Virus record (IMG/VR): IMGVR_UViG_3300023278_002893
Span: 233,726 to 297,725 of that record
Length of the DNA: 64,000 nt
Reading direction: 5' to 3' (one strand)
Source: a virus
Every line of letters begins with the position of its first letter. Positions within the stretch are counted from its first letter, which is position 1. This document shows positions 50,149 through 63,941 of the stretch, piece after piece. The notes beneath the pieces were generated by a model. It ran no database searches. It saw only the letters and a program-made list of their open reading frames with translations, and was not told the DNA's origin. A program made the position numbers and the translations under genes.

Positions 50149-50952
50149 ATGGGTGCCAAAGTAAAGGACGAAACACCAAAGACCAAGTTCGGTGGTGATT
50201 ACAAGACAGCTCAGATCTACAGCATGGGGTATGAGTTCGCATTCATGTCTCAGAAGCGAAAGGGTGCGGTCTATGAACAGGCCACCCCCATGGTGTATTG
50301 CAAGGACTTCCTCCACGACGCTCTCTGGGCTTTCATCAACCAGACGAATTGGCAGATCCACAGCTTCAAGTACAACTACGGGAAGAACCCGCCCTTGATG
50401 CTCGACCATACCGCGCTCGCCTTCCAGAACACCCAGTTCAAGGGTAATGAAGACGAGTTCCATGGGAAGATGGACGCGTGTTTGGAATTCCTTCGTCTCT
50501 GTGAGCGTCAGTTGAACCTGCGCCCCTCGGAGATCCACCAGGTCGAAAACAAGAACGGTCCGTGTTGGTTGGTGCTTGGTGACGCGGGATGGCAGCATTC
50601 CCCCACCATGATTTCCCTCTACACGCTCTTCATCCGACTAGGCTGCTTCCACACGCCAGGAGCTAAGCTCGAAGATACGTTGAAGTTGGCAAAGTCAGGG
50701 AAGATCAAGATCGGTCAGTCCGGCTATGCAGGCAACAACGACGGGAGCTACGTCAAGCAGGGTTGGAAGGGGATCGAATTGATCTTGAAGCACGGGATGG
50801 GTATCTGGCATCCTAAGCAGGCGGACAACTACCCAATGTCTCTCAGGGATGCCGGGCTTCATGACAACTACGGGATCGTCAACTTCACCGCCAAACGTCC
50901 CCTGGAAACGATGCCACACTGGTACCGTAAGGAAATCTGGGGCAAAAAGTAA
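50149..50952 (+). CDS. amidoligase-cassette protein, paralogue of the 53532 gene
   Basis: 267 residues, unknown fold. Shares with 53532-54284 a central region (CLEFLRLCERQLNLRPSEI, CWLVLGDAGWQHSPTMISLY) and overall length; both are the outer genes of the cassette. No ATP-grasp motif recognised. Could be a substrate-binding or ligase partner. GAAGGAG before the ATG. Confidence 0.72.
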   Translation: MGAKVKDETPKTKFGGDYKTAQIYSMGYEFAFMSQKRKGAVYEQATPMVYCKDFLHDALWAFINQTNWQIHSFKYNYGKNPPLMLDHTALAFQNTQFKGNEDEFHGKMDACLEFLRLCERQLNLRPSEIHQVENKNGPCWLVLGDAGWQHSPTMISLYTLFIRLGCFHTPGAKLEDTLKLAKSGKIKIGQSGYAGNNDGSYVKQGWKGIELILKHGMGIWHPKQADNYPMSLRDAGLHDNYGIVNFTAKRPLETMPHWYRKEIWGKK

Positions 50953-50962
50953 GGAGAGATCG

Positions 50963-51859
50963 ATGGAAGGGTGTTTCGTCGCCGGGGCCGACCCCGAGCT
51001 GATGCTGGTAGATGCGCAGGGAGTTCTAGTTAGTGCCATTGGGATCGTCCCGGGAACCAAAGAAGATCCCCATCCCCTGACTTGTGGGGCGGTACAACAT
51101 GACAATGTCCTGGGCGAGTTCAATGTCAATCCTTCGGAAACCAGTGAAGAACTGGTACACAATTTTCGGGAAGTCCTACGGGAACTCTCGGAGATGATAG
51201 CTCCTCTGTCTTTGGTGGCCAGAGCCAGTGCCGAATACCCAAAGTCTGCATTGGAAGATGACGTGGCTAAGATCTTCGGATGCGATCCAGACTTCAATGC
51301 CTGGACCATGATGAGGAACTCCGTCGACGGCACTGCTGCCATGAAGAGATTCCGATCTGCCGGAGGTCACTTCCATGTGGGAATGGCCGACTCGACCAGG
51401 GAGATGCTCGCCGATCCTTACGGAAAAGTCGAGGTCGTGAAGATGATGGATATCTTCATGGGTATTCCCAGTGTCCTTATCGACGACGACCCGACCGCCC
51501 CTGCTCGAAGGAAGCTCTATGGAGGAGCGGGCGCCCACCGACCCAAGGACTACGGAGTGGAATACCGAGCCTTGGGCAACTTCTGGGTCAGATCGCCCGA
51601 TCTCGTGGAGCTGATGTACGAGCTAGCCAATGTAGCGGTGTCTCTGACTCTGGACGGAAAAAGCAGCGAGATTATCGAGGCAGTGAGTGAAGAAACCGCT
51701 CAGCAGGTAATCAACAAATCCGATCGCTCCGTGGCGGGAAAGATCGTTGAGAATCATCTGAAGAAATGGATCGATTCCACGATCTACCAATGTCTCGTCT
51801 CTAAGTCACCAATCGCTAACATAAAGGGACTAACCTTGAAAGAGGCCTGGGGAATCTAG
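50963..51859 (+). CDS. COOH-NH2 ligase (phiEco32 type 2 amidoligase)
   Basis: 298 residues. GADPELMLVD, AIGIVPGTKEDPH, GAVQHDNVLGEFNV, AGGHFHVGMAD, EYRALGNFW match the phage phiEco32-like COOH-NH2 ligase family of the glutamine-synthetase-like fold. It joins a carboxylate to an amine using ATP, forming an amide or peptide bond. Substrate unknown. AAGGAGAG before the ATG; TAGTG overlap with the next gene. Confidence 0.88.
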   Translation: MEGCFVAGADPELMLVDAQGVLVSAIGIVPGTKEDPHPLTCGAVQHDNVLGEFNVNPSETSEELVHNFREVLRELSEMIAPLSLVARASAEYPKSALEDDVAKIFGCDPDFNAWTMMRNSVDGTAAMKRFRSAGGHFHVGMADSTREMLADPYGKVEVVKMMDIFMGIPSVLIDDDPTAPARRKLYGGAGAHRPKDYGVEYRALGNFWVRSPDLVELMYELANVAVSLTLDGKSSEIIEAVSEETAQQVINKSDRSVAGKIVENHLKKWIDSTIYQCLVSKSPIANIKGLTLKEAWGI

Positions 51860-52761
51860 TGCAACGTTTGTTACCGGGGAATAAAAAGGCTCGTCGCGGA
51901 TGGGATGTCGAGATTCCAGACCACCTTTCCTGCGAGATAGGCGACCACGTCGTATATCGCGCAGTTAATCGCCTCGGCGGTGAGCACACGTTCTCAGATA
52001 AAGAAACCGCTCCCGTCAGCACAAGAGTTTGTTACGCCGAGTGTCGGCCGAAATACAACAACTACGATATCGAATGTATGCCCCACAATATGAAGAAGAG
52101 AGGTGTTATCACAATCGACGATGTGATTACCTTCTTCAATTACTTCGATGCTCTGGAAATGCTTCCAGAAGGGATTGAAATGTGGGAGAAAGCTCCCGGA
52201 TCAGGAACTCACATCCTCATCAAGGCTGACTCGAAGACCAATCCCCACTACTATTACGTCGCCCTGACTTTGTATCGGTGGGTGGATTCCCATCCCGTAC
52301 TGGTTTGGAAATTCTTGAGACTTATGGAATCCAATCCCGAACTCCACCCCATGCAGGTGCTACCCCATCTGATCGAGAAGTATATCAACAATAGTAATCA
52401 CAGCTTCATCGAAGTAGGGCTAGCATATACAGCCGCTATCAATCCTCTATCGGGACTGTCGGCCAAATTATACTTCGATTCGTCCTCTAAGTTTGGTAAG
52501 AAAGCGCTGGCCGAACCAACGAAGTATGTCCTCGATGGCATCAAAGAGATATGTGAGAAGATAACTCCCATGATCAAGCTCAAGGTACCTGTGAGTAAAC
52601 ATCCCTGGTCTCCTACTTACACCACAGAACCGCTATACGTGTTAGAACAGGGTGTAGATTGTCTAAGCCCTGTACTGACCGAGTTGTACAATCTCACCAA
52701 CCCAAACAAGAAAACAATCGTGGAGTTTCTAGAAGAAAACTTCACCAAGGAGCGAAGGTAA
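51859..52761 (+). CDS. amidoligase-cassette protein, unknown
   Basis: 300 residues (GTG start inside the ligase stop). Helical and alpha/beta, no motif that I recognise (YYYVALTLYRWVDSHPVLVW central). Position suggests a second ligase or an adaptor of the cassette. Confidence 0.7.
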   Translation: MQRLLPGNKKARRGWDVEIPDHLSCEIGDHVVYRAVNRLGGEHTFSDKETAPVSTRVCYAECRPKYNNYDIECMPHNMKKRGVITIDDVITFFNYFDALEMLPEGIEMWEKAPGSGTHILIKADSKTNPHYYYVALTLYRWVDSHPVLVWKFLRLMESNPELHPMQVLPHLIEKYINNSNHSFIEVGLAYTAAINPLSGLSAKLYFDSSSKFGKKALAEPTKYVLDGIKEICEKITPMIKLKVPVSKHPWSPTYTTEPLYVLEQGVDCLSPVLTELYNLTNPNKKTIVEFLEENFTKERR

Positions 52762-52764
52762 GCA

Positions 52765-53469
52765 ATGCTGATTTACGTCGAGGATGATTACGATGGACAA
52801 TACGGAACTTTTTGGTCGGAACTCGGCGAAATCATTCGCGATCCCGCGATCTTCAAGGCCCGCCCTCAAGACTTCGGACTAGTCTGCTTCACGGGTGGTT
52901 CCGATGTGAGCCCCGAACTGTATGACCACCAGAATCTGGGCAGTCACAACAGCCTCTCCCGCGACAAGACGGAGATGCGAGTCTACGAGCTGGCGTTGGA
53001 ACATGGAATCCCCATGACCGGCATCTGCCGGGGCAGCCAGTTCCTGAATGTCCAGATGGGCGGAACCATGGTTCAGGATCTAGGCGCGAGCCACGGTGGT
53101 AGCCCGCACCTCGCACTGACCATCCAAGCCGACGATGACGTCCGGGACATGCAGGTTACCAGTTCTCATCATCAGATGAGTGTGTTGGGTGAAGGAGGAA
53201 TCCTGCTGGCCCACTCCGAGATCTCGATCCCTTGGGACGCTTGTGCGTACGACGGAGAATTCCCGGCTGGAGCAGAGTGCCTGCTCGACGAACGCGGTGA
53301 CGATCCGGAGAAGCGCATCTACATGACCGAAGCCTTCGCCTATCCCGAAGCCAGGATCTTTGCCGTCCAGCATCATCCCGAATGGCAGGATGTCAGTTGC
53401 AAAGCGGCTCAATGGACTCTTCGCAAGATTCGCGAGATTTGTCTGGGAGAAAAAGAAGCAGCGGTTTGA
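52765..53469 (+). CDS. class I glutamine amidotransferase (peptidase C26-like)
   Basis: 234 residues. Nucleophile Cys in TGICRGSQFLNV, DLGASHGG, SHHQMSV and AVQHHPEW (catalytic His) fit gamma-glutamyl hydrolases such as PuuD. Could cleave a gamma-glutamyl amide or supply ammonia for the ligase. Short ATG behind AAGG; the end is coupled to the last cassette gene. Confidence 0.88.
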   Translation: MLIYVEDDYDGQYGTFWSELGEIIRDPAIFKARPQDFGLVCFTGGSDVSPELYDHQNLGSHNSLSRDKTEMRVYELALEHGIPMTGICRGSQFLNVQMGGTMVQDLGASHGGSPHLALTIQADDDVRDMQVTSSHHQMSVLGEGGILLAHSEISIPWDACAYDGEFPAGAECLLDERGDDPEKRIYMTEAFAYPEARIFAVQHHPEWQDVSCKAAQWTLRKIREICLGEKEAAV

Positions 53470-53531
53470 AGACCGTAATAATTCGTTGGTTCCAGCGAAT
53501 AGGTAAAAGACCCAGAACGAAGAGGTGCTAC

Positions 53532-54284
53532 GTGACAGAAGAGACAGAAGTAGATTGGAACGCCGACGGGATTAACGAGTGCGATAGTTATTTCGAGGGG
53601 CCTGTGTTTGCTTGGCTATCCCCCAAGTCGAAAGGTAAGTTGAAACAGGCTCACCAATGGACAAGGTGCCGCGACATCGTCGGGTCGTATTTTTCAGGAG
53701 CCCTAAGAAGCACTTCCACAGAGTATGGGGGCATCGCGTGGAAAAAGAATTACCCGCTGCCCTCTTTTGATCAGACCGTTGTGGGAGTCAAGTTGAACTC
53801 CCAAGACAGCAAGACTTTGACTTACGACTCCAATAACATGGAGACGATCGTCTGGGCAATCGAAGATAAGCTCGGTCTCAAAAGGACTGAACTGATCCCG
53901 ATGGAGAACCCCCAGACCTATCCTGAGGGATGCCAACTCTGGGCATTTGTCGGGGACCCGTTCTGGCAGAAAGCACCTCCACTGCTCAGCATGTACCTTC
54001 TGCTAATCAGAACCACCCCATACCTCGATCCCGACGTCGGCAGCCTGACGAAGATCATCGGACAGAATCTCAGGGAGCGGAATGCTGGCGAAGATTGTCT
54101 CGCCGCTGCTAAGACCACCATCATGCGCATCGTTAAGGAAGGAACGGAAGTCTGGACTGGTGAGCAAGAAGAATACTACACAGGTAGGAAGTTCCAATAC
54201 CTCGGCTTGAAGTACTTCACCGCCCTAAGTCCGCGAGAAAGGAAACACTTCCTAGCCCACGGAAAGCCAGACACGATACTGTAA
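53532..54284 (+). CDS. amidoligase-cassette protein, paralogue of the 50149 gene
   Basis: 250 residues from the GTG at 53532 (AGAGG six bases before). It aligns with 50149-50952: IVWAIEDKLGLKRTELI, LWAFVGDPFWQKAPPLLSMY. A longer TTG start at 53466 overlapping the previous stop is possible but does not match the partner's N-terminus. Function unknown. Confidence 0.7.
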   Translation: MTEETEVDWNADGINECDSYFEGPVFAWLSPKSKGKLKQAHQWTRCRDIVGSYFSGALRSTSTEYGGIAWKKNYPLPSFDQTVVGVKLNSQDSKTLTYDSNNMETIVWAIEDKLGLKRTELIPMENPQTYPEGCQLWAFVGDPFWQKAPPLLSMYLLLIRTTPYLDPDVGSLTKIIGQNLRERNAGEDCLAAAKTTIMRIVKEGTEVWTGEQEEYYTGRKFQYLGLKYFTALSPRERKHFLAHGKPDTIL

Positions 54285-54289
54285 AGTTC

Positions 54290-54318
54290 TTGACATTCGA
54301 GGCCTAATAACGTATCAT
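54290..54318 (+). promoter_or_regulatory. sigma70-type promoter of the tRNA array
   Basis: TTGACA at 54290-54295, 17-nt spacer, TATCAT at 54313-54318. Start expected near 54325, ahead of the tRNA-Arg and the interleaved genes. Confidence 0.85.
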
Positions 54319-54388
54319 TGTATTTCAATCTCCCCCCTAAGGAGTCGGAAATTACCACCCTCCCGGACACGAGTAAAGGAAATAATAT

Positions 54389-54465
54389 GCCCCCTTCGTC
54401 TAATTGGATAAGGCCCTGGTTTTCTAAACCAGTTATTGCAGGTTCGAGTCCTGCAGGGGGTGCCA
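54389..54465 (+). tRNA. tRNA-Arg (TCT)
   Basis: Acceptor GCCCCCT/AGGGGGT, anticodon arm CTGGT-TTTCTAA-ACCAG with TCT, T arm GCAGG-TTCGAGT-CCTGC, encoded CCA. Confidence 0.95.
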
Positions 54466-54493
54466 AATACAAATCCATCCAAAGGAGAAGTAG

Positions 54494-54745
54494 ATGCCGA
54501 AAAATATCAGTAAATGGCATTCTCGTGCGGTCTGCCCCTTCTGTGGTTGGCACACATACGCCCCCTTCGGAAATGTTTTCCACGTACACATCGATTGCTG
54601 CCCAGAATGTGGTCACAAGAAATACGATAGTTTTCTTCGCGACGGAAATAAAGTGTGGTACGTAAAGACCATGCGACGTGTGAATGGCGCGGAACTATGG
54701 AAGCCCAAGACTTGGGGTACCCATCACTGGGAGACAAGGGACTAA
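54494..54745 (+). CDS. zinc-ribbon protein
   Basis: 83 residues. CPFC and CCPEC flank a beta hairpin as in a zinc ribbon, basic and Trp-rich C-terminus. Common phage type, role unknown. AAAGGAG before the ATG. Confidence 0.72.
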   Translation: MPKNISKWHSRAVCPFCGWHTYAPFGNVFHVHIDCCPECGHKKYDSFLRDGNKVWYVKTMRRVNGAELWKPKTWGTHHWETRD

Positions 54746-55011
54746 TGAATAAGATACAACGACCGACCGATATCGGAATGACTGGAGTCATGCTCCATCT
54801 GGCCGAATACTTTCTGTCTCAAGCCGTCGATATCCTGGCGCACATCATGATTGCGCCAAGCTCAGCATCCACCGATTGCATTCTCGAAAGAGCAGGGGAC
54901 GCAAACGAGGTATTCACTTTCACCTGGGAATGCTACATCAAACACACGAACTGTGCCTTAGAGACAACCAGCCTTACGTTGGGCGATCTCCACGAGGGAA
55001 AAACGACATGA
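54745..55011 (+). CDS. hypothetical protein
   Basis: 88 residues, helical hydrophobic middle (GVMLHLAEYFLSQAVDIL), not clearly membrane; not recognised. TAATG overlap sets the start. Confidence 0.65.
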   Translation: MNKIQRPTDIGMTGVMLHLAEYFLSQAVDILAHIMIAPSSASTDCILERAGDANEVFTFTWECYIKHTNCALETTSLTLGDLHEGKTT

Positions 55012-55433
55012 GTGTAAGATGCGGACATATTATGCGCCTCGAGGACCTCCACGGAGTGAGTGGGACGGGCAAGATCGCCGATGTCTTCGAAGCCTCCAAT
55101 GGTAAGTGCATTGTGGTTTGGATCTCGGCTCATTCTAGCACCAATATTTACGACAATGTGAAGCACGTTGAATCCACCCATAGCCATGGAGGTAAGACTC
55201 TGGTGATCTGGGACTGGGAATCTCCGCCCGATCCAGATCCCATGGATGCGCTCAAGAAGGACGATATCGACAAGCCGGAATTCAGTGCCGCTGAGATCGA
55301 AGAAATCTCGAAAGACGAAGCAGAGGACGTCCAGAAGCGTATTGCGCATAAGATTGCGGAGAAGTTGAGTGATCCCGCCCCAATCGAAGAATCTCCCGAG
55401 AAAAAGGAAGAAGAGAGGGACGAAAAGACGTAA
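55008..55433 (+). CDS. hypothetical acidic protein
   Basis: 141 residues: beta-rich N-terminal 65, then a strongly acidic, probably coiled or disordered tail. ATGA overlap with the gene before. Followed by a GGCGG/CCGCC pair without a tRNA fold. Confidence 0.65.
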   Translation: MSVRCGHIMRLEDLHGVSGTGKIADVFEASNGKCIVVWISAHSSTNIYDNVKHVESTHSHGGKTLVIWDWESPPDPDPMDALKKDDIDKPEFSAAEIEEISKDEAEDVQKRIAHKIAEKLSDPAPIEESPEKKEEERDEKT

Positions 55434-55520
55434 GGCGGTAGAGAAGTTGGTAATGACAGAGTAGAGGATAACACCCTCCACCCCGTCCGCCCCCGAACCC
55501 AAATTTAGAAGGAGAACACA

Positions 55521-55952
55521 ATGCCCGACCAAATCAACCCCGTAGATGCAATCGGAATGGCCCTAACCCCCGGAACAATCTTCAACCAGGGAGGTAACAT
55601 CTGGCGCTCAGCAAGTGCTCTCGGCCAGTTCGCCGCACTTGGCAGTCGAGAGGTTCTGGCATTGATCGTTGCCCACCTGTCGGATAAGGTGACCATCCGA
55701 CCCAGCGCCAAGAATCCCCAAAATGGACCCCTCATTGCTCTCACCGAGTTCATCCCCGACGATCTGGTCGATGGAGAAGGCGTGGTCCAGGTGAAGATAA
55801 TGGGAGGTAACGCAGTCGCACCAGACCCCGCTCCCGCAGCAGCGCTGTCCAAGATCGTAGAGAATGCGGGCCAAGTCGGCGGTGATCCGATCAAGGTGAA
55901 TGAAGTTGGTCCAGCACTGGCTGGGCTGGCAATACAAGGACCTCAGGAATAA
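55521..55952 (+). CDS. hypothetical Ala/Pro-rich protein
   Basis: 143 residues, few charged residues, balanced C-ending codons; reads as a stable, possibly abundant protein. Not recognised. GAAGGAG before the ATG. After it, TATCCGA and TCGGATA form a hairpin (about 55974-56020). Confidence 0.68.
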   Translation: MPDQINPVDAIGMALTPGTIFNQGGNIWRSASALGQFAALGSREVLALIVAHLSDKVTIRPSAKNPQNGPLIALTEFIPDDLVDGEGVVQVKIMGGNAVAPDPAPAAALSKIVENAGQVGGDPIKVNEVGPALAGLAIQGPQE

Positions 55953-56026
55953 TCGAACCACCTGGGTGATTAGATATCCGAACGAGGTGTGCGATGTAGC
56001 GCAATCCTAGTAAATCGGATAATCAC

Positions 56027-56281
56027 ATGCGAAGAATCTTAGAAATGCTCATTTCGAAGAAGAATCGCGATGATCTTTGGTACAATCTCGAACGAGTATG
56101 GGTGGAACACCTGTACTACGACGAACTCAGACGCCTTTGGGACCTAATCGGGTCAGGGGCGCTTGAAGACGCAGAAAAGTTGATGAAAATGCTTCACCAG
56201 GAGCACCATCACTTGGAACCAGAATTAGTGCGTGCCAGAGCATTGATACGACGCCAATGTAACTCAACTGGATTAGAGTAG
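56027..56281 (+). CDS. hypothetical helical protein running into a tRNA
   Basis: 84 residues, helical (RRLWDLIGSGALEDAEKLM). Its last nine codons and stop lie inside the tRNA-Thr gene. Processing of the tRNA would remove the stop, so the protein may be made only from unprocessed RNA. Confidence 0.6.
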   Translation: MRRILEMLISKKNRDDLWYNLERVWVEHLYYDELRRLWDLIGSGALEDAEKLMKMLHQEHHHLEPELVRARALIRRQCNSTGLE

Positions 56282-56330
56282 CCGTCTCGTAAGCGGCAAG
56301 TTCTCGGTTCGAATCCGAGCATTGGCTCCA
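56253..56330 (+). tRNA. tRNA-Thr (CGT)
   Basis: Acceptor GCCAATG/CATTGGC, anticodon loop CTCGTAA with CGT, T arm CTCGG-TTCGAAT-CCGAG, encoded CCA. Confidence 0.93.
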
Positions 56331-56345
56331 CATAAGGACTTGAGT

Positions 56346-56540
56346 ATGTTACCTGGAGATATCCGGAACGAGTTGGAGAAAACGCTCGCGGGTATGACCG
56401 CATTGGAAAGACATTTCGACGCAATGATCGGTAAAGGAGTAGATAAACTCCGACCTGTCCGATTGGAGTTGGAAGAAGCAGTTGATGCAATCGGTCGTGC
56501 CATAAACGAGCTGGATGACGCATTCAGTAAGATCAATTAG
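56346..56540 (+). CDS. hypothetical coiled-coil protein
   Basis: 64 residues, one long amphipathic helix (LRPVRLELEEAVDAIGRAI). Its TAG stop shares the G with the first base of the next tRNA. AAGGA before the ATG. Confidence 0.62.
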   Translation: MLPGDIRNELEKTLAGMTALERHFDAMIGKGVDKLRPVRLELEEAVDAIGRAINELDDAFSKIN

Positions 56541-56616
56541 CGCCCGTAATTCAACTGGATAGAATGACAGACTTCGAATCTGTTCGTTGGAGGTTCGAAT
56601 CCTCCCGGGCGTGCCA
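56540..56616 (+). tRNA. tRNA-Arg (TCG)
   Basis: Acceptor GCGCCCG/CGGGCGT, anticodon arm ACAGA-CTTCGAA-TCTGT with TCG, T arm GGAGG-TTCGAAT-CCTCC, encoded CCA. Confidence 0.94.
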
Positions 56617-56629
56617 GACAGGAGGCGTG

Positions 56630-56866
56630 ATGAGAAAAGGGTATCGGAAAATCGTAGTCTGCGGAATGGATTTCGAATATAAGGTAGGCAAGACGATGGT
56701 AGATATTCGAGGTCTCGGACATGACTACCACGAAGCCGGGAATTTCCCCGAATTGACTGGAATGACCTGGAATGACATCGAACGTGCCCGGCACAAGGGT
56801 AATTTCTCCATCACACCGAAGATGATAGCCAAGATTATCGAATCAGAGATACCGACGGAGAATTAA
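56630..56866 (+). CDS. hypothetical protein
   Basis: 78 residues, small alpha/beta, not recognised. AGGAGGCGTG before the ATG, which rules out a longer frame running through the tRNA. Confidence 0.65.
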   Translation: MRKGYRKIVVCGMDFEYKVGKTMVDIRGLGHDYHEAGNFPELTGMTWNDIERARHKGNFSITPKMIAKIIESEIPTEN

Positions 56867-56870
56867 CGTT

Positions 56871-57167
56871 ATGGGAAAAGTCATAATTGCCGTACCTTGC
56901 CACCGATGTAAAGGAAGTGGGTGGTTATTGTTTCGTGAAGGAACCAACGAATCACAACTCCAATTAGATCCAGGACACCGCAAACGTCAGAAAAGAGCGG
57001 GTAATTTCTTCATCCCCAGACCTGGTTGGTTTCGTCAATCCGATTGGGTCGCGCCTGGGTCATCGAAACGCTCGTATTACAGATTGGATGCGACCAAAGA
57101 ATGCTTTACCTGCAAGGGCCGGGGAGAGGTGCCTCAAAAAGCTAAGCTGTACGAAGAGGTATCTTGA
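56871..57167 (+). CDS. DnaJ-type zinc-finger protein
   Basis: 98 residues with two CxxCxGxG motifs (CHRCKGSG and CFTCKGRG) 70 residues apart, which form the zinc centre of DnaJ-like domains. No J domain. Probably a protein-binding or RNA-binding zinc module. Confidence 0.75.
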   Translation: MGKVIIAVPCHRCKGSGWLLFREGTNESQLQLDPGHRKRQKRAGNFFIPRPGWFRQSDWVAPGSSKRSYYRLDATKECFTCKGRGEVPQKAKLYEEVS

Positions 57168-57355
57168 TGAATTGGATTAATCGGGCTGATGAAATACCTC
57201 CTGATATGGTGCGAATCTTGGTATTCAGCCCCGAGCATGAAGAAGGGCATTCGATGCGATACAGGGTCATGGATAGTCAGTTCTTCCACCTCTCAGGAGA
57301 CGGAACCCACTGGGCATTGCTTGAACCTCCTAGCTCCGATAGCTCAGTAGGATAG
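57167..57355 (+). CDS. DUF551-like protein overlapping a tRNA
   Basis: 62 residues: NWINRADEIPPDMVRILVF and THWALLEPP match the DUF551 pattern (W...P...VLV, ITHW..LP.PP), phage-common, unknown role. The last seven codons and stop are inside tRNA-Arg(CCT). Confidence 0.68.
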   Translation: MNWINRADEIPPDMVRILVFSPEHEEGHSMRYRVMDSQFFHLSGDGTHWALLEPPSSDSSVG

Positions 57356-57406
57356 AGCGTCGGTTTCCTAAACCGTAGGCCGGGGGTTCGAATCCTCCTC
57401 GGAGCA
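57333..57406 (+). tRNA. tRNA-Arg (CCT)
   Basis: Acceptor GCTCCGA/TCGGAGC, anticodon loop TTCCTAA with CCT, T arm GGGGG-TTCGAAT-CCTCC with one weak pair. CCA is not encoded (ACAA follows), unlike most others here. Confidence 0.9.
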
Positions 57407-57410
57407 CAAA

Positions 57411-57609
57411 ATGACACCAACCGAACAGGATGCTATAATACGCGCGACTGGTGTACCGCTGTCAAATGGCACCATTCTGCTCGTACTACTTGGACTTATA
57501 ATAAGCGTTCTTGTTGTTGGTATTCTAACCACTTGTTGGGAAGAATATCAAGACAGAAAAGGATACAGACGACATCCTCGCGGCCACCGCGGCGCACGGC
57601 CAACAAAAC
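57411..57609 (+). CDS. membrane protein frame without a stop before tRNA-Lys
   Basis: ATG at 57411 starts a frame with a transmembrane helix (residues 20-42, TILLVLLGLIISVLVVGILT) and a basic tail. No stop occurs before the tRNA at 57610; the frame continues through the tRNA into the next gene and ends at 58361. Either tRNA release leaves a non-stop message, or a 316-residue fusion is made. Confidence 0.5.
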
Positions 57610-57687
57610 GGGCCCCTAGCTCAATAGGCTCAGAGCAGCTGGCTCTTAACCAGCAGGTTCCGGGTTCGAATCCCGGGGGGCTCACCA
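57610..57687 (+). tRNA. tRNA-Lys (CTT)
   Basis: Acceptor GGGCCCC/GGGGCTC, anticodon arm GCTGG-CTCTTAA-CCAGC with CTT, T arm CCGGG-TTCGAAT-CCCGG, encoded CCA. Lies within an open reading frame. Confidence 0.94.
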
Positions 57688-57704
57688 ATTTGAATGGAGA
57701 AGGT

Positions 57705-58361
57705 GTGAGACGCCGAATAAAGTGGTATTTGGATCAACGTGTTGCGATCGCGAATGTGCCTGGAGGAGGTCAGCCGCAAAGATTCGAATGGAAAGACATC
57801 CCCCGGCCGCGAATCGATCCAAATGATGCAAGCAGGGGGTTTCGAGACTTCCGCAAAGGCGAGAATCGGGTATTTCTCCATTGGGGATCTGGCGATGGTG
57901 GAATTGGAACCGTGGACGATTTCTTGGATGAAGTAGAACTTCAAACGTACATTATCCGTTTAGTCTATGATATCCAAAGCAGGCACCTAATTCCTTCGGA
58001 AATCCTCGCAGATGCTAAGTTGGTCTACGAAAATCATTCTTGGGTGGATTCTTGGTCGCGTCGCCGTAATACAAATGGAAAGATTATCTATACGGATGCG
58101 ACGATTTGTCCCCCACCGAATCGCCATATCCAGTTTTCGGGGTACTGTAATAATCCGATCGGTAGGAATGTAAGATCATCAGTCCAAAGAGCGCAGAGGA
58201 GAACAAGAGTTATTGGAAAAATACACTCGGCGCAGAAAAAAGTAGAAATACCGGAAATTCCCGACGATGCGTGCTTTTTCGCCTTCAAAGCGGGTGCTTT
58301 TTATGAAAAAGATCAAAAACCTGGAAAATCTGCTTGCCGCGAAGAAGAAAAACAAGTATAA
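57705..58361 (+). CDS. hypothetical protein (GTG start)
   Basis: 218 residues, basic and aromatic, FEWKDIPRPRIDPNDASRG and CFFAFKAGAFYEK near the ends; not recognised. GGAGAAGGT before the GTG, just after the tRNA. In frame with the membrane ORF upstream. Confidence 0.65.
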   Translation: MRRRIKWYLDQRVAIANVPGGGQPQRFEWKDIPRPRIDPNDASRGFRDFRKGENRVFLHWGSGDGGIGTVDDFLDEVELQTYIIRLVYDIQSRHLIPSEILADAKLVYENHSWVDSWSRRRNTNGKIIYTDATICPPPNRHIQFSGYCNNPIGRNVRSSVQRAQRRTRVIGKIHSAQKKVEIPEIPDDACFFAFKAGAFYEKDQKPGKSACREEEKQV

Positions 58362-58372
58362 TTGTTGTGCTT

Positions 58373-58446
58373 GGCGATGTAGCTCAGCTTGGAAGAGCGT
58401 CCCCTTCATATGGGGAAGGTCGGGATTTCGAAATTCCCCATCGCCA
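58373..58446 (+). tRNA. tRNA-Met (CAT), elongator type
   Basis: Acceptor GGCGATG/CATCGCC with normal G1-C72, D stem GCTC/GAGC, anticodon loop TTCATAT with CAT, CCA not encoded. A lysidine-modified tRNA-Ile with CAT cannot be excluded. Confidence 0.9.
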
Positions 58447-58471
58447 CAAGTAGAAGAAAAGGGAACTTATT

Positions 58472-58723
58472 ATGAGTTATTGCAGAAATAACGGAATCAA
58501 CAGTGACGTTTATGTCATCGCAACCAAAAACGGTGAAAAAGAGGTATGGGAGTGCGTAGGATGCACCCTAACGGAAAGAAGATACGGAAAGACCCTTGAT
58601 ACCCGATCGAAGATGCTGACCCACCTGGAGCATCACAGGGTTTTGGGCGATAAAGTTCCCATTTGTGCCACATCAAGGCTACAACGGGAAATACAAGAAA
58701 TGTTAAGCAACGACATAGAATGA
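58472..58723 (+). CDS. hypothetical protein with CVGC motif
   Basis: 83 residues: one CVGC pair and a later Cys and His residues (HLEHH), perhaps a zinc site. AAAAGGGAAC before the ATG. Not recognised. Confidence 0.65.
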   Translation: MSYCRNNGINSDVYVIATKNGEKEVWECVGCTLTERRYGKTLDTRSKMLTHLEHHRVLGDKVPICATSRLQREIQEMLSNDIE

Positions 58724-58734
58724 ATACAATTTGA

Positions 58735-58809
58735 CGCGGAATAGAGAAGTCAGGTCATCTCATCAGGTTCATAACCTGAAAATCGGAGGTTCAAATCCTT
58801 CTTCCGCTA
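58735..58809 (+). tRNA. initiator-like tRNA-fMet (CAT)
   Basis: CGCGGAA pairs with TTCCGCT except that C1 faces T72, an unpaired acceptor end as in bacterial initiator tRNA; the D stem GAGA/TCTC has A11-T24, another initiator mark; anticodon stem TCAGG-TTCATAA-CCTGA has two of the three G-C pairs. CCA not encoded. Distinct from the elongator tRNA-Met 290 nt upstream. Confidence 0.8.
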
Positions 58810-58813
58810 CAAG

Positions 58814-58936
58814 GTGAGAATTTGCTCAGGATTCGAGACTTTGCTGTTCCAGACCAAAAGGGATCTGGAAGGTTCCTATCGACATCCCGATCCAGAGGAA
58901 GAAGAGGATCATCCCCTAAGAGATTCCACGACTTAG
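58814..58936 (+). CDS. possible 40-residue acidic protein (GTG start)
   Basis: Acidic tail HPDPEEEEDHP. Only a weak ribosome site next to the tRNA end; a longer ORF in another frame overlaps. Uncertain. Confidence 0.35.
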   Translation: MRICSGFETLLFQTKRDLEGSYRHPDPEEEEDHPLRDSTT

Positions 58937-58973
58937 AAAAAAAAGTAGGCTCCCACTACCAAGGATTAGTTTT

Positions 58974-59378
58974 ATGCGGATACCGACCCAACACGTGCCT
59001 AACTTGGCGCACCATGCGATTGTACACAAAGAAGGCATCGGCGTTATTCACTATAAGTGTAATGGGTTATTGATACGCGCGGGGGGTCGTACCCGGGATG
59101 AGACTTCCGGAATTCCGAGAAATGCGCCGGGAAAAATATTCTGCTCAACCTGTGGGTGTAAAGTAGGGCGTTCAGTAACCGCTCTACTCAAGAACGATTC
59201 TGAGCGTGAAAGTCTCTACGGTTTGGGGGGAGGATTAGAACTAAATGTAGGTGTCTACGTGACGGATCTGAAGGGGGGCGGGCAAGGTTTTTACCAATTC
59301 TGGTATTGGAGCAAGATTAAGAAGGTCAGTCGGTCTGAACATGATGCTCCAGTTTTGATCGGCCGAAAAAAAAGTTAG
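58974..59378 (+). CDS. hypothetical protein with CSTCGC motif
   Basis: 134 residues: His-rich start, CSTCGC in the middle, basic end. Not recognised. The G of its TAG stop is the first base of tRNA-Asp. Confidence 0.65.
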   Translation: MRIPTQHVPNLAHHAIVHKEGIGVIHYKCNGLLIRAGGRTRDETSGIPRNAPGKIFCSTCGCKVGRSVTALLKNDSERESLYGLGGGLELNVGVYVTDLKGGGQGFYQFWYWSKIKKVSRSEHDAPVLIGRKKS

Positions 59379-59455
59379 CCCCGGCGGTCCAGCATGGAGT
59401 GGACGCTGCCCTGTCACGGCGGAGATCGCGGGTTCAAATCCCGCTCGGGGCGCCA
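59378..59455 (+). tRNA. tRNA-Asp (GTC)
   Basis: Acceptor GCCCCGG/TCGGGGC, anticodon loop CTGTCAC with GTC, T arm GCGGG-TTCAAAT-CCCGC, encoded CCA. Confidence 0.94.
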
Positions 59456-59482
59456 GATCGTCTATAAAAAGGAGAGCCAATT

Positions 59483-59734
59483 ATGAAAGAAGTATTATAC
59501 TTTTCAGCTAACTGGTGTGTGCCCTGTAAGCAGATGAAGCCAATCGTAAAGCAAGTCGAAGAAGCCACGGGTGTGTCTTTCAGATTACTGGATGCGGATA
59601 CCGAATCAGAGCTGTCATTCACACATAAGGTCAGAGCGGTACCAACTTTCGTCTATCTAGAAGACGGAGTAGAGATTTCCCGCGCCACTGGCGCGCAAAC
59701 AGCAAACGAGCTGACATCTGCCTTGTCGCTCTAA
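59483..59734 (+). CDS. thioredoxin-like protein
   Basis: 83 residues, shorter than host thioredoxin. Active site WCVPCK, then VRAVPTFVYLEDG with the cis-Pro, the order of a thioredoxin fold. Could reduce phage ribonucleotide reductase or other disulfides. AAGGAGAG before the ATG. Confidence 0.9.
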   Translation: MKEVLYFSANWCVPCKQMKPIVKQVEEATGVSFRLLDADTESELSFTHKVRAVPTFVYLEDGVEISRATGAQTANELTSALSL

Positions 59735-59738
59735 ACAT

Positions 59739-59815
59739 GCTCCTGTAGGCTAGTGGATAAGGCCGTCAGTCTTTCAAGCTGAAGATCGCGGGTTCAAATC
59801 CCGCCAGGAGCACCA
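59739..59815 (+). tRNA. tRNA-Glu (TTC)
   Basis: Acceptor GCTCCTG/CAGGAGC, anticodon arm TCAGT-CTTTCAA-GCTGA with TTC, T arm GCGGG-TTCAAAT-CCCGC, encoded CCA. Confidence 0.94.
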
Positions 59816-59820
59816 ATTTC

Positions 59821-60306
59821 GGGGCATTACCCGGCGCACCTCATTCCTGCTAAGGATGGGCATGAGCCGGGTAACCCCCACCAATTTGACGGGCTTCGCG
59901 CGAGGAAAACTGCAAACTTTTGCCTGTGAGAAGAAGCAGATACAGGTACTCTTCGGTCTGGTCAGGAGACTCAGCCAGACCCCGTCAATATTTACCACCC
60001 TGATTAGTTGGTGAGGCTTACCCTTGCATCCTGCTCGCAAATGGATGGCTAGTCAGACAATTATGACCGTGGAGCAGAGGAAGAGCTGCCCCTGACTATC
60101 AATGACGCGCCGGTTCATCCCAGGTATCATCAAAGACTCCCGTGCTTGGCTCGCGACTCGAACGGAAAGTCTGGTATCTGTAGTGGTGTAAAAGGCACCA
60201 TCCCTAAGGGGAGGGTACGGAGTCGTCCTGCGTGGGTTTGCGCTGTGCCCTAAACGGCGACAGGGATTTCGACGGGATAGCCGGGAGAGAAACCGGACAC
60301 GGGCAC
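59821..60306 (+). ncRNA. candidate large structured RNA inside the tRNA array
   Basis: About 490 nt without a convincing ORF but with many helices: GGGG/CCCC with TTACCCGG/CCGGGTAA (59821-59878) enclosing CTCAT/ATGAG; TTGACGGG/CCCGTCAA (59886-59988) enclosing CCTGT/ACAGG and GGTCTGG/CCAGACC; CACC/GGTG; TAGTCAG/CTGACTA (60050-60098); CCCT/AGGG; GTGCCC/GGGCAC (60245-60306) with an inner CCGG/CCGG stem. Size and tRNA neighbourhood recall GOLLD and ROOL phage RNAs, but membership is untested. A GGATTTCGACGGG string resembles tmRNA; no acceptor or T arm supports that. Confidence 0.6.
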
Positions 60307-60329
60307 CCTAAAGCAAGAGGAGAAAAATC

Positions 60330-60374
60330 ATGCACTATTTCAAAGGAGAGACCATGAACACAATTCAGGACTAG
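60330..60374 (+). CDS. 14-residue leader peptide of an attenuator
   Basis: MHYFKGETMNTIQD, ATG behind AAGAGGAG. Its last codons and TAG stop form the 5' arm of a hairpin whose 3' side holds the next gene's ribosome site. Translation or stalling here would open that hairpin. A regulatory rather than enzymatic product. Confidence 0.6.
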   Translation: MHYFKGETMNTIQD

Positions 60375-60430
60375 GAATAAGTTAGGTCTGCACTGAAGCA
60401 GATCCCTCCTAGTCCAGGAGGTTGTGTTCA
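60354..60430 (+). promoter_or_regulatory. ribosome-site-sequestering hairpin
   Basis: GAACACAA (60356-60363) pairs with TTGTGTTC, and GGACTAGGA (60368-60376) pairs with TCCTAGTCC; AGGAGG of the 60430 gene lies between the two 3' arms. The start codon directly follows the stem. Layout of translational attenuators such as erm leaders. Confidence 0.65.
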
Positions 60431-60573
60431 TGAACAAGAAGAACGAGAGCGTGCGCTGGGTTTATAACAAGAGCCGTGTCAATGAGCCCTTCAAGAAGAT
60501 CGCTGGTTTCGAGGCCTGGTTCTATACGGGCGGATCGCAGCACTTCGGACATTATCCCGGCAAGAAGCGCTAG
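60430..60573 (+). CDS. small basic protein under attenuator control
   Basis: 47 residues, basic and aromatic (MNKKNESVRWVYNKSRVNEP, ending GHYPGKKR). Not recognised. AGGAGG is eight bases before the ATG but within the hairpin. Followed by a TTCG-capped hairpin. Confidence 0.65.
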   Translation: MNKKNESVRWVYNKSRVNEPFKKIAGFEAWFYTGGSQHFGHYPGKKR

Positions 60574-60581
60574 TACATCGA

Positions 60582-60603
60582 GGGAGATCCTTCGGGATCT
60601 CCC
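60582..60603 (+). terminator. TTCG-loop hairpin
   Basis: GGGAGATCC-TTCG-GGATCTCCC, nine perfect pairs with a stable UUCG tetraloop; no U tract. 3' end or processing structure of the small gene. Confidence 0.6.
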
Positions 60604-60624
60604 TCCCAAGGAAGGAAAAATCAG

Positions 60625-60954
60625 ATGGGAACTAAGAAGGAAGTAGAACCAGTTCCAAGAAGACAGGAAAAGGTTCTTGCCTATTGGGTAATCTTCAAGG
60701 GCAAGAAGAGGGACACCAATCGAAGATACTTCATGTCAAACAACTACGAGGGGTGGTACTGCACAGGCCCTCCCGTACTACGGAGCGTTCCCAGACCCCA
60801 CAACGCTGCCCACTACAAAACTGAAAGGGAAGCCATCGAGGTGATGGAGTCGGAATGGGAAGTTCCCGATGCGAGCGCAAACAGTCTGAAAGCTGCGGGA
60901 TTCGAGTTCGTCTGTGAGGTGACCCAGACAACTTGCTTGGAGACCTCCGCATAA
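60625..60954 (+). CDS. hypothetical protein
   Basis: 109 residues, basic start, alpha/beta, not recognised. AAGGAAGG before the ATG. Confidence 0.65.
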   Translation: MGTKKEVEPVPRRQEKVLAYWVIFKGKKRDTNRRYFMSNNYEGWYCTGPPVLRSVPRPHNAAHYKTEREAIEVMESEWEVPDASANSLKAAGFEFVCEVTQTTCLETSA

Positions 60955-61004
60955 GGGATTGAAGTGGTCAGAGCGTAGTGCTCCCTCTCCACGAAGAAGA
61001 CTAA

Positions 61005-61081
61005 GCTCCTGTCGTCTAACGGCTTAGGACACCGCCCTCTCAAGGCGGAGACTGCGGGTTCGAATCCCGCCAGGAGTACCA
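61005..61081 (+). tRNA. tRNA-Glu (CTC)
   Basis: Acceptor GCTCCTG/CAGGAGT, anticodon arm CCGCC-CTCTCAA-GGCGG with CTC, T arm GCGGG-TTCGAAT-CCCGC, encoded CCA. Confidence 0.94.
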
Positions 61082-61091
61082 GGAGATAAAG

Positions 61092-61298
61092 ATGCCAAAA
61101 GTTCACGGTGTCCACATGAGATGGACGCACCAGGAAGGGTCTTGCTTCAAGTGTGGCAAGAAGAAAGATCCCAAACACTACATGGTGGAAGTAGAAAAGA
61201 CGATCATCTTGTGCTACGATTGCGTTCAAGCTTTTAGGGAGAGGTTCAGTAATGGAAACAGTAATTCTGGCCGGCGGACAAAGATTCCTCGCACATGA
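61092..61298 (+). CDS. zinc-ribbon protein
   Basis: 68 residues. CFKC and CYDC 20 residues apart make a zinc ribbon with basic flanks. AGGAG right after the tRNA serves as ribosome site. Overlaps the next gene by 47 nt. Confidence 0.68.
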   Translation: MPKVHGVHMRWTHQEGSCFKCGKKKDPKHYMVEVEKTIILCYDCVQAFRERFSNGNSNSGRRTKIPRT

Positions 61299-61521
61299 CG
61301 AGGGTGATTGTATCGGAGAGTTTTGCTGCATCCACAATCCCAGCGACCACCACATGAAAGACTGGCCCCAGTTCTGGAGAGCAGATAAAGGAGTAATGGA
61401 GAGACTCTGTGAGCACGGAATAGGTCATCCAGATCCCGACGATCTTCTCATCAGCGGGCCAGTAGAAGGTAGATCCCAATGGGCTTCGATACATGGATGC
61501 GATGGGTGTTGCCGTGGATAA
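61252..61521 (+). CDS. hypothetical Cys/His-rich protein
   Basis: 89 residues with CIGEFCCIHNP and CDGCC, several His; metal binding is likely, function unknown. Starts inside the gene before. Confidence 0.62.
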   Translation: METVILAGGQRFLAHDEGDCIGEFCCIHNPSDHHMKDWPQFWRADKGVMERLCEHGIGHPDPDDLLISGPVEGRSQWASIHGCDGCCRG

Positions 61522-61882
61522 TCCTCTCTGGTGTGAAGTAGCAACCCAATACGACAAGGATTACAAGAAGCTGGACGCTGATGAACCTTTCGCCTCCTTT
61601 AGTTTCATCCGGCTGACCAATCTCTATGCTGTGGCGTGTGTTTGCTATTACGAATACGATTTCTCGCCGGTGGAAGATCATATCTTCGATGGCCTGTGTC
61701 ATTACCTCCTGGAATTCTACGATGAAGCCATGTCTGCGGGAGTGTGGGGAGGAGTCCTCGAAAAAGAAATGTTGAAGGCCGGTTCCGGATACCACTGCAA
61801 AGGATTCCGGCTCGCCATTCACAATATCGCCCACTACGTACGACAAATTACCGCAAGGAGAAAATATGTCGCCGCGACGTAA
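61493..61882 (+). CDS. hypothetical helical protein
   Basis: 129 residues, aromatic and acidic, helical end (CKGFRLAIHNIAHYVRQITA). Not recognised. Overlaps both neighbours, so one translation-coupled run of genes. Confidence 0.62.
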   Translation: MDAMGVAVDNPLWCEVATQYDKDYKKLDADEPFASFSFIRLTNLYAVACVCYYEYDFSPVEDHIFDGLCHYLLEFYDEAMSAGVWGGVLEKEMLKAGSGYHCKGFRLAIHNIAHYVRQITARRKYVAAT

Positions 61883-62042
61883 AAGATGTGCATATTGTAA
61901 CATGCTCACGTATAAGTGGCAGAGCTACAACGGAAGCGTCACTCACTGCTACGATGGGTGCTATTCCACAACAGGAATCGATCACCGAACCGAAGACGGG
62001 AAACCTCTTTGGAAGGGTGGTAAAGCAAAAAAGGTAAGGTGA
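61866..62042 (+). CDS. small zinc-ribbon protein
   Basis: 58 residues: CAYC and CYDGC, Lys/Arg-rich ends. AAGGAGAAAAT before the ATG. Its last codons and TGA lie in the acceptor stem of tRNA-Ser. Confidence 0.6.
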   Translation: MSPRRKRCAYCNMLTYKWQSYNGSVTHCYDGCYSTTGIDHRTEDGKPLWKGGKAKKVR

Positions 62043-62124
62043 CCGAGAGGCCGATGGTAACGGTTTGCTAAACCGTCGTGGTCTGACAATGCCACCGTGG
62101 GTTCGAATCCCACCCTTACCGCCA
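62033..62124 (+). tRNA. tRNA-Ser (GCT)
   Basis: Acceptor GGTAAGG/CCTTACC, anticodon arm ACGGT-TTGCTAA-ACCGT with GCT, long variable arm, T arm GTGGG-TTCGAAT-CCCAC, encoded CCA. Confidence 0.94.
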
Positions 62125-62134
62125 AGGAGATAAC

Positions 62135-62248
62135 ATGAACAGACTTAGAGGCGCGTTAGACTCTTTCTTCGCGGGGATTATGATCCTCCTCATCACTGTG
62201 TCTGAACAGCTCGCACGTAGGAGACGGAAGAAGAATGCCGATCTATGA
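62135..62248 (+). CDS. small membrane protein
   Basis: 37 residues: hydrophobic helix ([16 protein letters not shown]) then Arg/Lys-rich tail. AAGGAG before the ATG; its end overlaps the next gene. Confidence 0.5.
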
Positions 62249-62441
62249 ATACCTGTGCGAGCACGGGCACAAGTTCGAAGAGGTTCAGTCCATCAAGGAC
62301 GAGCCGATCAAGACTTGTCCCGAGATCATACCTTTTTCCGGACCAGACTTCACAAAATGTGACGGCGCGGTCAAAAGACTCATCAGCCGCACCTCTTTCA
62401 TCCTCAAGGGTGATAGTTGGGCCAAGGACGGATACAAGTGA
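62235..62441 (+). CDS. FmdB-like zinc-ribbon protein
   Basis: 68 residues. [33 protein letters not shown] and [14 protein letters not shown] match the FmdB/CxxC-SSSS family of putative regulators; the first Cys pair is partly replaced (C.HGH). Overlaps the membrane peptide by 14 nt. Confidence 0.8.
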
Positions 62442-62692
62442 TCCTGGTAGATGGCGTGCTACGAATTCTCGACGGGGAAGAAGGAGAGGTTACTTCTTTC
62501 AAGGCAATACATGCGGACGCTCTACGGATCTGCAAAGAGACAGGTTCGGTACTAGATCTGGCCGTTTCTGATGTAGATCTGTATCTGGAAACTTCAGATC
62601 TGGATGTAGCAAAGAGGGTCGCTGTCTGCTACAGTCCTAGTCTGAAGGTCGAGCGGGTTGGTCCGAAAGAATACCGTATCTTTTGGCCCTGA
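62438..62692 (+). CDS. hypothetical protein (GTG start)
   Basis: 84 residues, acidic alpha/beta, not recognised. GTGA overlap with the FmdB-like gene. Confidence 0.62.
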
Positions 62693-62747
62693 AATGGTCA
62701 ATTTAGGTAAGTAATTATGCCCGTATGGCGGAATAGGAGTACGTATT

Positions 62748-62915
62748 ATGGAAATATTTATCTTTATAGCGGGTATGGTAATACCTGTAGCAATAAATTT
62801 ACTATGCTTCAGAACCTATAGCGGCCTCGGCGTCCTCGTGACCGTCTTTATGGAGTGGAAGATCATTAGAGTGGGTAAAGATTGGCGCTGGAAACCGTAC
62901 ATCAAGCCGGAATGA
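62748..62915 (+). CDS. small membrane protein
   Basis: 55 residues with two hydrophobic stretches (residues 2-20 and 25-36) and a basic tail. TAGGAG before the ATG. Confidence 0.55.
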   Translation: MEIFIFIAGMVIPVAINLLCFRTYSGLGVLVTVFMEWKIIRVGKDWRWKPYIKPE

Positions 62916-62919
62916 CTTT

Positions 62920-63492
62920 ATGGTAAAGTATACAAGAGAACTACTACAGAAAGCAGCTAAGGAGAGTGAGTCCATAGCTGGAGTCATGCGTGCCCTCGGA
63001 ATAAAGAAGTAGGCAGGTGGAACCCATGCGTGGATCAAGAACAGGTTGCTGCACTTCGAAATAAATACTTCTCACTTTACCGGACAGGGACACAACAGGG
63101 GCAGCGAGGCTCCCAATCGATTGAATCCTGAGGACGTGTTTGTACTCAGGGAAGAGGGTGCTCGCCAGAAAAGGAATATCCTCTGGAGATGCCTGATTGA
63201 AGTAGGTCGAGGTGGTGTATGTGAAGAGTGTGGTCAGGGACCCATTTGGAAGGGTAAAGACCTCGTTCTTCAGATAGATCATATTGATGGAAATTTCTTG
63301 GACGACAGGGAGGAGAACCTCAGAATCCTGTGTCCTAATTGTCACACACAAACTCCTACGTTTGGTAGGAACAAAAACAGAGCAGGAGTGGCGGAATTGG
63401 TCTACGCAGCGGTTTTAGGGGCCGTACCCGAAAGGGCTGAGGGTTCGAGTCCCTCCTCCTGTACCAGTAATCAAAACAAATTATTTGAGTAA
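62920..63492 (+). pseudogene. HNH endonuclease frame interrupted by TAG
   Basis: From ATG 62920: an N-terminal HTH-like part (YTRELLQKAAKESESIAGVM-ALGIKK), an in-frame TAG at 63010-63012, then AGGTHAWIKNRLL, NTSHFTGQGHNRG and the HNH core CEECGQG, LQIDHIDGN, NLRILCPNCH. One frame throughout, so only the TAG breaks it. Many neighbours end in TAG, so reassignment is unlikely; suppression, restart at 63046 (TTG), or decay are possible. The 3' end runs through tRNA-Leu to 63492 without an earlier stop. Confidence 0.75.
63382..63466 (+). tRNA. tRNA-Leu (TAG)
   Basis: Acceptor GCAGGAG/CTCCTGT, anticodon loop TTTAGGG with TAG, long variable arm, T arm GAGGG-TTCGAGT-CCCTC, encoded CCA. Confidence 0.93.
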
Positions 63493-63515
63493 GTCAACCA
63501 GCACAGGAGATCATT

Positions 63516-63941
63516 ATGTTTTACTTCGTTAGTTGGTACAAAGATTCGATCGACGACGCAATGCAAAAAGGTAATTTTTTCACTGCTCTTGGCTGCGGCG
63601 CCAAAGCCTACCCTGTAGGTGCGCGAATGCGAGAAATGCCCCCCGGCAGTTTGGTCATATTGGCTTCCGCCAGGACACGTGATGATGGGGATGACGTGTA
63701 TAAAGGTTATGCGGTTGTGCGGGTAGAGAACCCAATCGAACGTGCACTTGGCCTGATACTTGCCAAAGTTATCTGGCCTAACTCAGGTTACCAAGCGACC
63801 AACGAATCAATCCCTCTGGTAGTGAGGCCTGAAGGAGTAGAGCTGGATAAGAACCTTTGGAAACCCTTAGGTAAAACTTTCAACCGCACCATATATGAGA
63901 TGGAACAGGGAGATTTTGAGGCAGCAATAACCTGCTTCTAA
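63516..63941 (+). CDS. hypothetical protein
   Basis: 141 residues, beta-rich (GARMREMPPGSLVILASA, YKGYAVVRVENPI), faintly like EVE/PUA-type domains; not recognised. AGGAG before the ATG. Confidence 0.62.
   Translation: MFYFVSWYKDSIDDAMQKGNFFTALGCGAKAYPVGARMREMPPGSLVILASARTRDDGDDVYKGYAVVRVENPIERALGLILAKVIWPNSGYQATNESIPLVVRPEGVELDKNLWKPLGKTFNRTIYEMEQGDFEAAITCF

Follow-up and report, generated by a model that had tools for sequence, protein, structure and literature searches.

A conserved structured RNA within the tRNA arrays of two related jumbo phages

Genomic setting of the locus

The window, i.e., the whole stretch of 64 kb that was analysed, represents the end of a 297.7-kb IMG/VR contig of a jumbo phage (G000). 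This phage carries 29 tRNA genes, and the array extends from 41 kb of the window to the end of the contig and continues at the contig start. Over positions 50625-63941, the window is identical to a second contig (IMGVR_UViG_3300023278_003531). In a DNA similarity search, named phages showed no similarity to the stretch apart from tRNAs, and a search with the phage's own terminase protein retrieved about 40 relatives. One of these, G008 (IMGVR_UViG_3300022719_000329; 295.8 kb), was used for comparison; it is a distantly related jumbo phage, whose terminase is 68% identical, whose array of 33 tRNAs nearly matches that of the window phage in order and whose neighbouring proteins are mostly 30 to 60% identical. 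The tRNA array is preceded, at window 50849-53469, by neighbouring genes for an amidoligase (COOH-NH2 ligase) and a glutamine amidotransferase, which are conserved in G008 with 53 to 59% identity.

The locus begins behind a tRNA-Glu(UUC) gene, which is followed by about 490 nt without a convincing open reading frame (ORF), as stated in the preliminary description, and then by small ORFs. Its main features are as follows.

59739-59815, plus strand: tRNA-Glu(UUC), the upstream neighbour, conserved in G008
59821-59878, plus strand: very stable hairpin directly after tRNA-Glu (z -4.8), with no counterpart in G008, outside the conserved RNA
59886-59988, plus strand: TTGACGGG/CCCGTCAA domain of ordinary stability (z -1.5), not conserved
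60062-60308, plus strand: conserved structured RNA of about 240 nt, identified by the G008 alignment, pair counts and a model match; its ends are approximate and derive from homology and the closing helix
60214-60307, plus strand: best conserved 3' core, non-coding, 74% identical to G008:91195-91287 over 96 columns

A small thioredoxin-like gene (59483-59734; PF00085, E 3e-15) is flanked by tRNA-Asp and tRNA-Glu; no homologue of it was seen in the array of G008.

Folding of the region and its nonconserved 5' part

The preliminary description had interpreted 59821-60306 as one large RNA because of its many long helices, but their number and the stability of the region do not exceed those of shuffled sequence. 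The minimum free energy of 59816-60330 on the plus strand is -179.8, compared with a shuffled mean of -175.4 (z -0.71; 24 of 100 shuffles were at least as stable), and the minus strand folds with a z of -1.27. Perfect helices of at least 6 bp number 9 (8.8 expected from shuffled sequence), those of at least 7 bp number 4 (2.0 expected), and those of at least 8 bp number 2 (0.5 expected), a count that was reached in 15 of 200 shuffles. Helix counts and folding are thus ordinary, and the helix argument alone is no proof of an RNA; the case for its reality rests on the sequence comparison with a related phage and not on folding.

That comparison divides the region. A structured RNA is supported by homology at approximately 60062-60308, whereas the 5' half of the proposed molecule (59821-60061, about 240 nt) lacks conservation. 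The complementary strings TTGACGGG (59886-59893) and CCCGTCAA (59981-59988) are present as described, and so are GTGCCC and GGGCAC, but upstream of 60062 the phage G008 carries a 53-aa open frame in place of the TTGACGGG/CCCGTCAA domain and of the strong hairpin before it. Because the two phages differ here, neither of these structures belongs to the conserved RNA. The arms of the hairpin, the only structure of the region to stand out by its stability, consist of GGGG (59821-59824) paired with CCCC (59875-59878) and UUACCCGGC (59827-59835) paired with GCCGGGUAA (59866-59874). The 9 bases CACCAATTT at the 3' end of tRNA-Glu (59811-59819) recur 68 bases further on (59879-59887) and thereby bracket the hairpin, as though it had been inserted here or had arisen as a copy of the tRNA end.

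Conservation in a related phage

The DNA of G008 matches window positions 60219-60294 with an E value of 9e-6, and in both phages the element is located between tRNA-Glu(UUC) and tRNA-Glu(CUC), with one copy per genome. Both arrays have 24 conserved non-tRNA blocks in common, and for 23 of them the two phages encode a common protein at the corresponding position; block 60214-60307 is the only one without a shared protein in any frame, and its alignment with G008 contains five 1-nt indels in 96 columns.

A covariance model was built from the window phage alone, using the helices CCUG/CAGG, Pb and Pc of the 3' part of the RNA. This single-phage model finds the G008 copy with an E value of 2.4e-14 and every pair intact, while the next best hit is no better than E 0.6; run over 16 records, it matched in G008 only. 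Between the window and G008, four helices keep their pairing through seven distinct two-sided changes (two each in Pb, Pc and P1, one in P2). Displacing every partner by one to three columns reduced the paired cells to 20 to 52% and left at most one two-sided change. A shuffle control for covariation, which is weak with only two sequences, gave 16/500 and 26/500, and with two sequences the covariation is suggestive rather than proven. The folding energy of the conserved domain is ordinary in both phages (z 0.05 in the window, -1.6 in G008).

The preliminary description had made its RNA depend on compensatory changes in homologues and on the absence of protein coding conserved across the stretch. 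Compensatory changes are present in the G008 homologue, and no protein shared with this phage was found across the stretch. With helices kept by compensatory changes in two sequences and no protein in common, positions 60062 to 60308 very probably represent a real structured non-coding RNA, and the proposal of such an RNA inside a phage tRNA array, without a match to a known family, is supported in this shortened form.

Architecture of the RNA

The RNA was placed at approximately 60062-60308 because its closing helix P1 encloses 60067-60302. Inside P1 follow, in order, P2, an invariant CCCUGA, a variable middle domain, CGUCCUG, GUGGGU, Pb, CAGGGAU..CGACGGGAUAG and Pc.

60067-60071, plus strand: P1 5' arm CCGUG of the 5-bp closing helix, paired with 60298-60302
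60074-60089, plus strand: P2 hairpin GCAG (60074-60077)/CUGC (60086-60089); GCGG/CCGU in G008, one two-sided change
60121-60180, plus strand: variable middle domain, from the predicted folds of both sequences
60227-60264, plus strand: possible helix CCUG (60227-60230)/CAGG (60261-60264), invariant in both phages
60234-60250, plus strand: possible H-type pseudoknot GGGU (60234-60237)/GCCC (60247-60250) with an A-rich third loop, invariant in both phages
60241-60259, plus strand: hairpin Pb CGCUG (60241-60245)/CGGCG (60255-60259); CGAGG/CCUCG in G008, two two-sided changes
60261-60280, plus strand: nearly invariant strand CAGGGAU..CGACGGGAUAG, from the G008 alignment
60281-60296, plus strand: hairpin Pc CCGG (60281-60284)/CCGG (60293-60296); UGGG/CCCA in G008, two two-sided changes
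60298-60302, plus strand: P1 3' arm CACGG, paired with 60067-60071

P1 reads CGCUG/CAGCG in G008, with two two-sided changes, and is also part of each sequence's own minimum-energy fold. The nested GTGCCC/GGGCAC helix that had been proposed is not the conserved pairing: the domain is closed by CCGUG/CACGG, and GCCC is situated in the loop of another hairpin. The middle domain is closed by the 9-bp helix CAGGUAUCA/UGGUAUCUG (60121-60129/60172-60180) in the window and by the 7-bp helix GAGAAGU/ACUUCUC in G008; since the sequences are not alignable here, the correspondence of the two domains is presumptive. In the 3' core, an H-type pseudoknot between GGGU and GCCC, the latter lying in the loop of Pb, is probable, and CCCUG (60090-60094) is a rival partner for CAGGG (60261-60265). 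As the strands concerned are without variation, the GGGU/GCCC, CCUG/CAGG and CCCUG/CAGGG pairings are putative.

Searches for known families and further members

At gathering scores, Rfam 15 recovered only tRNAs in the whole window, and no family matched the region at E<=10; for the G008 element, the only Rfam hit was a chance antisense match to NsiR4 (E 8.6). The Infernal searches proposed in the preliminary description, with models of GOLLD, ROOL, tmRNA and RNase P, yielded no match at the element. With the GOLLD model (RF02032), neither G000 nor G008 gave a hit at E<=10. The ROOL model (RF03087) had no match in either phage, nor was one obtained by cmscan, and it was also silent in its control genomes. 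The RNase P model (RF00010) found nothing in G000 or G008 and matched in 11 of 14 control genomes. The suggested kinship to GOLLD or ROOL is accordingly unsupported.

No third member was found in scans of viral and bacterial collections, so that two members are known. Fifteen further relative or neighbour records, mostly fragments, gave no covariance-model match; protein scans with the neighbouring ORFs of 129 aa and 109 aa brought no further phages, and a scan for an 89-aa HGCDGCC family led to 40 phages, all of them without the RNA. The DNA patterns AGGGATN{1,3}CGACGGGATAG and GTCCTGNGTGGGTN{18,40}CAGGGA in viral contigs and CAGGGATN{0,3}CGACGGGATAG in genome contigs also matched outside the two phages, but all of these hits lacked the remainder of the element and are regarded as chance matches.

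Genes downstream of the RNA

The genes that follow the RNA are unrelated, with 112 aa (Phage_L5_gp82 family) and 154 aa in G008 and 49 and 109 aa in the window, and neither phage has the other's ORF; a shared downstream gene, as it would be expected for a cis-acting leader, was thus not found between these two phages. In both, a start codon is located about 20 to 28 nt after P1, that of a 14-aa ORF from window position 60330 and that of the 112-aa ORF in G008. The Shine-Dalgarno sequence of the G008 ORF is covered by a predicted helix (CUCCUAG/CUAGGGG) immediately outside P1, to which the window sequence offers no counterpart. No convincing promoter or terminator was found around the RNA.

Another arrangement occurs behind the element in both phages, where a short upstream ORF runs into a hairpin, behind which AGGAGG and the beginning of an unrelated gene are located (window 60330-60432, MNTIQD*; G008 L064 ~2001-2085, MIVHQ*). 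The two start regions complement each other, ATGAACACAA (60354-60363) with TTGTGTTCAT (60422-60431) in the window and ATGAT with ATCAT in G008. This arrangement looks like a translation-attenuation leader that is attached to different genes.

Discussion

Several explanations of the conservation at 60062-60308 have to be weighed. That it reflects a peptide, e.g., one encoded on the minus strand, is very improbable: the minus strand does contain open frames here in both phages, but the indels break the frame, none of the frames at the homologous position is preserved as a protein and the base pairs are kept by double changes. A remnant or mimic of a tmRNA, which a resemblance of the string UUUCGACGGGAU to the tmRNA 5' signature might suggest, has next to no probability, given that neither tmRNA nor permuted tmRNA models match the element even at E<=10 and that it has neither an acceptor stem nor a T arm. 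Moreover, a genuine permuted tmRNA is encoded elsewhere in both genomes, and the element is therefore not their tmRNA.

A cis-acting leader, either riboswitch-like or in translational control, in which the fold of the RNA gates the ribosome-binding site of the small ORF, is conceivable but rather doubtful. It draws its plausibility from the start codon close behind P1 in both phages and from the covered Shine-Dalgarno sequence in G008. The ORFs are unrelated, however, the covering helix is restricted to G008, and in the window a separate leader-like hairpin (60354-60431) already precedes the next gene. The element might also act in cis on the tRNA operon itself, in antitermination or in the processing of the tRNA precursor. 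Consistent with such a role, it has a fixed place in a long array on one strand, with no evident terminators around it, and is retained whichever gene comes next. The put RNAs of phage HK022, e.g., keep RNA polymerase from terminating. Nevertheless, this explanation is unlikely, since the element occupies a position in the middle of the array and not at its start, and is present only once per genome.

The differing downstream genes favour a trans-acting RNA over the leader of one gene, and the retention of position and structure while the neighbours were exchanged fits an RNA that acts by itself better than a one-gene switch. As no convincing promoter or terminator is present, such an RNA would derive from the tRNA transcript and be excised by tRNA-processing nucleases. 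Our preferred reading, to which we assign about an even chance as a whole, is a free-standing RNA that is cut from the tRNA transcript and acts in trans. It would be part of a polycistronic transcript of the array, be freed by the same nucleases that process the adjacent tRNAs and, as a stable RNA, act in trans during infection, presumably on a target in translation or tRNA metabolism. All three components, i.e., the separate processed RNA, its action in trans and the nature of its target, are what we infer.

Small RNAs among phage tRNA genes have precedents. The tRNA cluster of phage T4 encodes the stable RNAs C and D, which are small and located between tRNA genes, a placement that the element shares; no Rfam family of any kind matched the latter. 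GOLLD, which forms a 14-mer nanocage, is likewise a phage or prophage RNA adjoining tRNAs, but many of its members exceed 800 nt, whereas the element comprises about 240 nt and does not match the model. ROOL is a phage or prophage RNA with pseudoknots that often occurs near tRNA islands (PMC12286853). The element resembles both GOLLD and ROOL in its position in a tRNA array and in layout, but the ROOL model has 574 positions and does not match it either.

We class the element, which is absent from Rfam, as a new family among the phage RNAs associated with tRNA arrays. Phage tRNA arrays keep yielding large RNAs of obscure role, such as GOLLD and ROOL, to which a separate, smaller family is now added. 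The array of a jumbo phage can conserve a non-tRNA RNA while adjacent ORFs turn over, and the defined boundary and the alignment now in hand make focused testing possible. Only tentatively, the element may exemplify a novel class of trans-acting phage RNAs with a pseudoknot, which originate from the tRNA array, are directed at the translation or tRNA machinery of the host and are retained by a jumbo-phage family as the genes around them turn over.

The permuted tmRNA (RF04321) of the same two phages is likewise a structured RNA with a CGAC..GG strand, but it is sited elsewhere in both genomes, and the element lacks its acceptor stem, T arm and tag frame. In the window phage it is located outside the window on the minus strand (L013 14154-14429, corresponding to G000:C1 ~74154-74429; 78.3 bits), and in G008 also on the minus strand (L173 1301-1564; 83.5 bits), with a model cut-off of 47 bits. 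Both were missed by ARAGORN. Their tag frames seem to be of unusual length, about 30 residues, and terminate in ..FAFAA* in the window phage and ..EAIAA* in G008.
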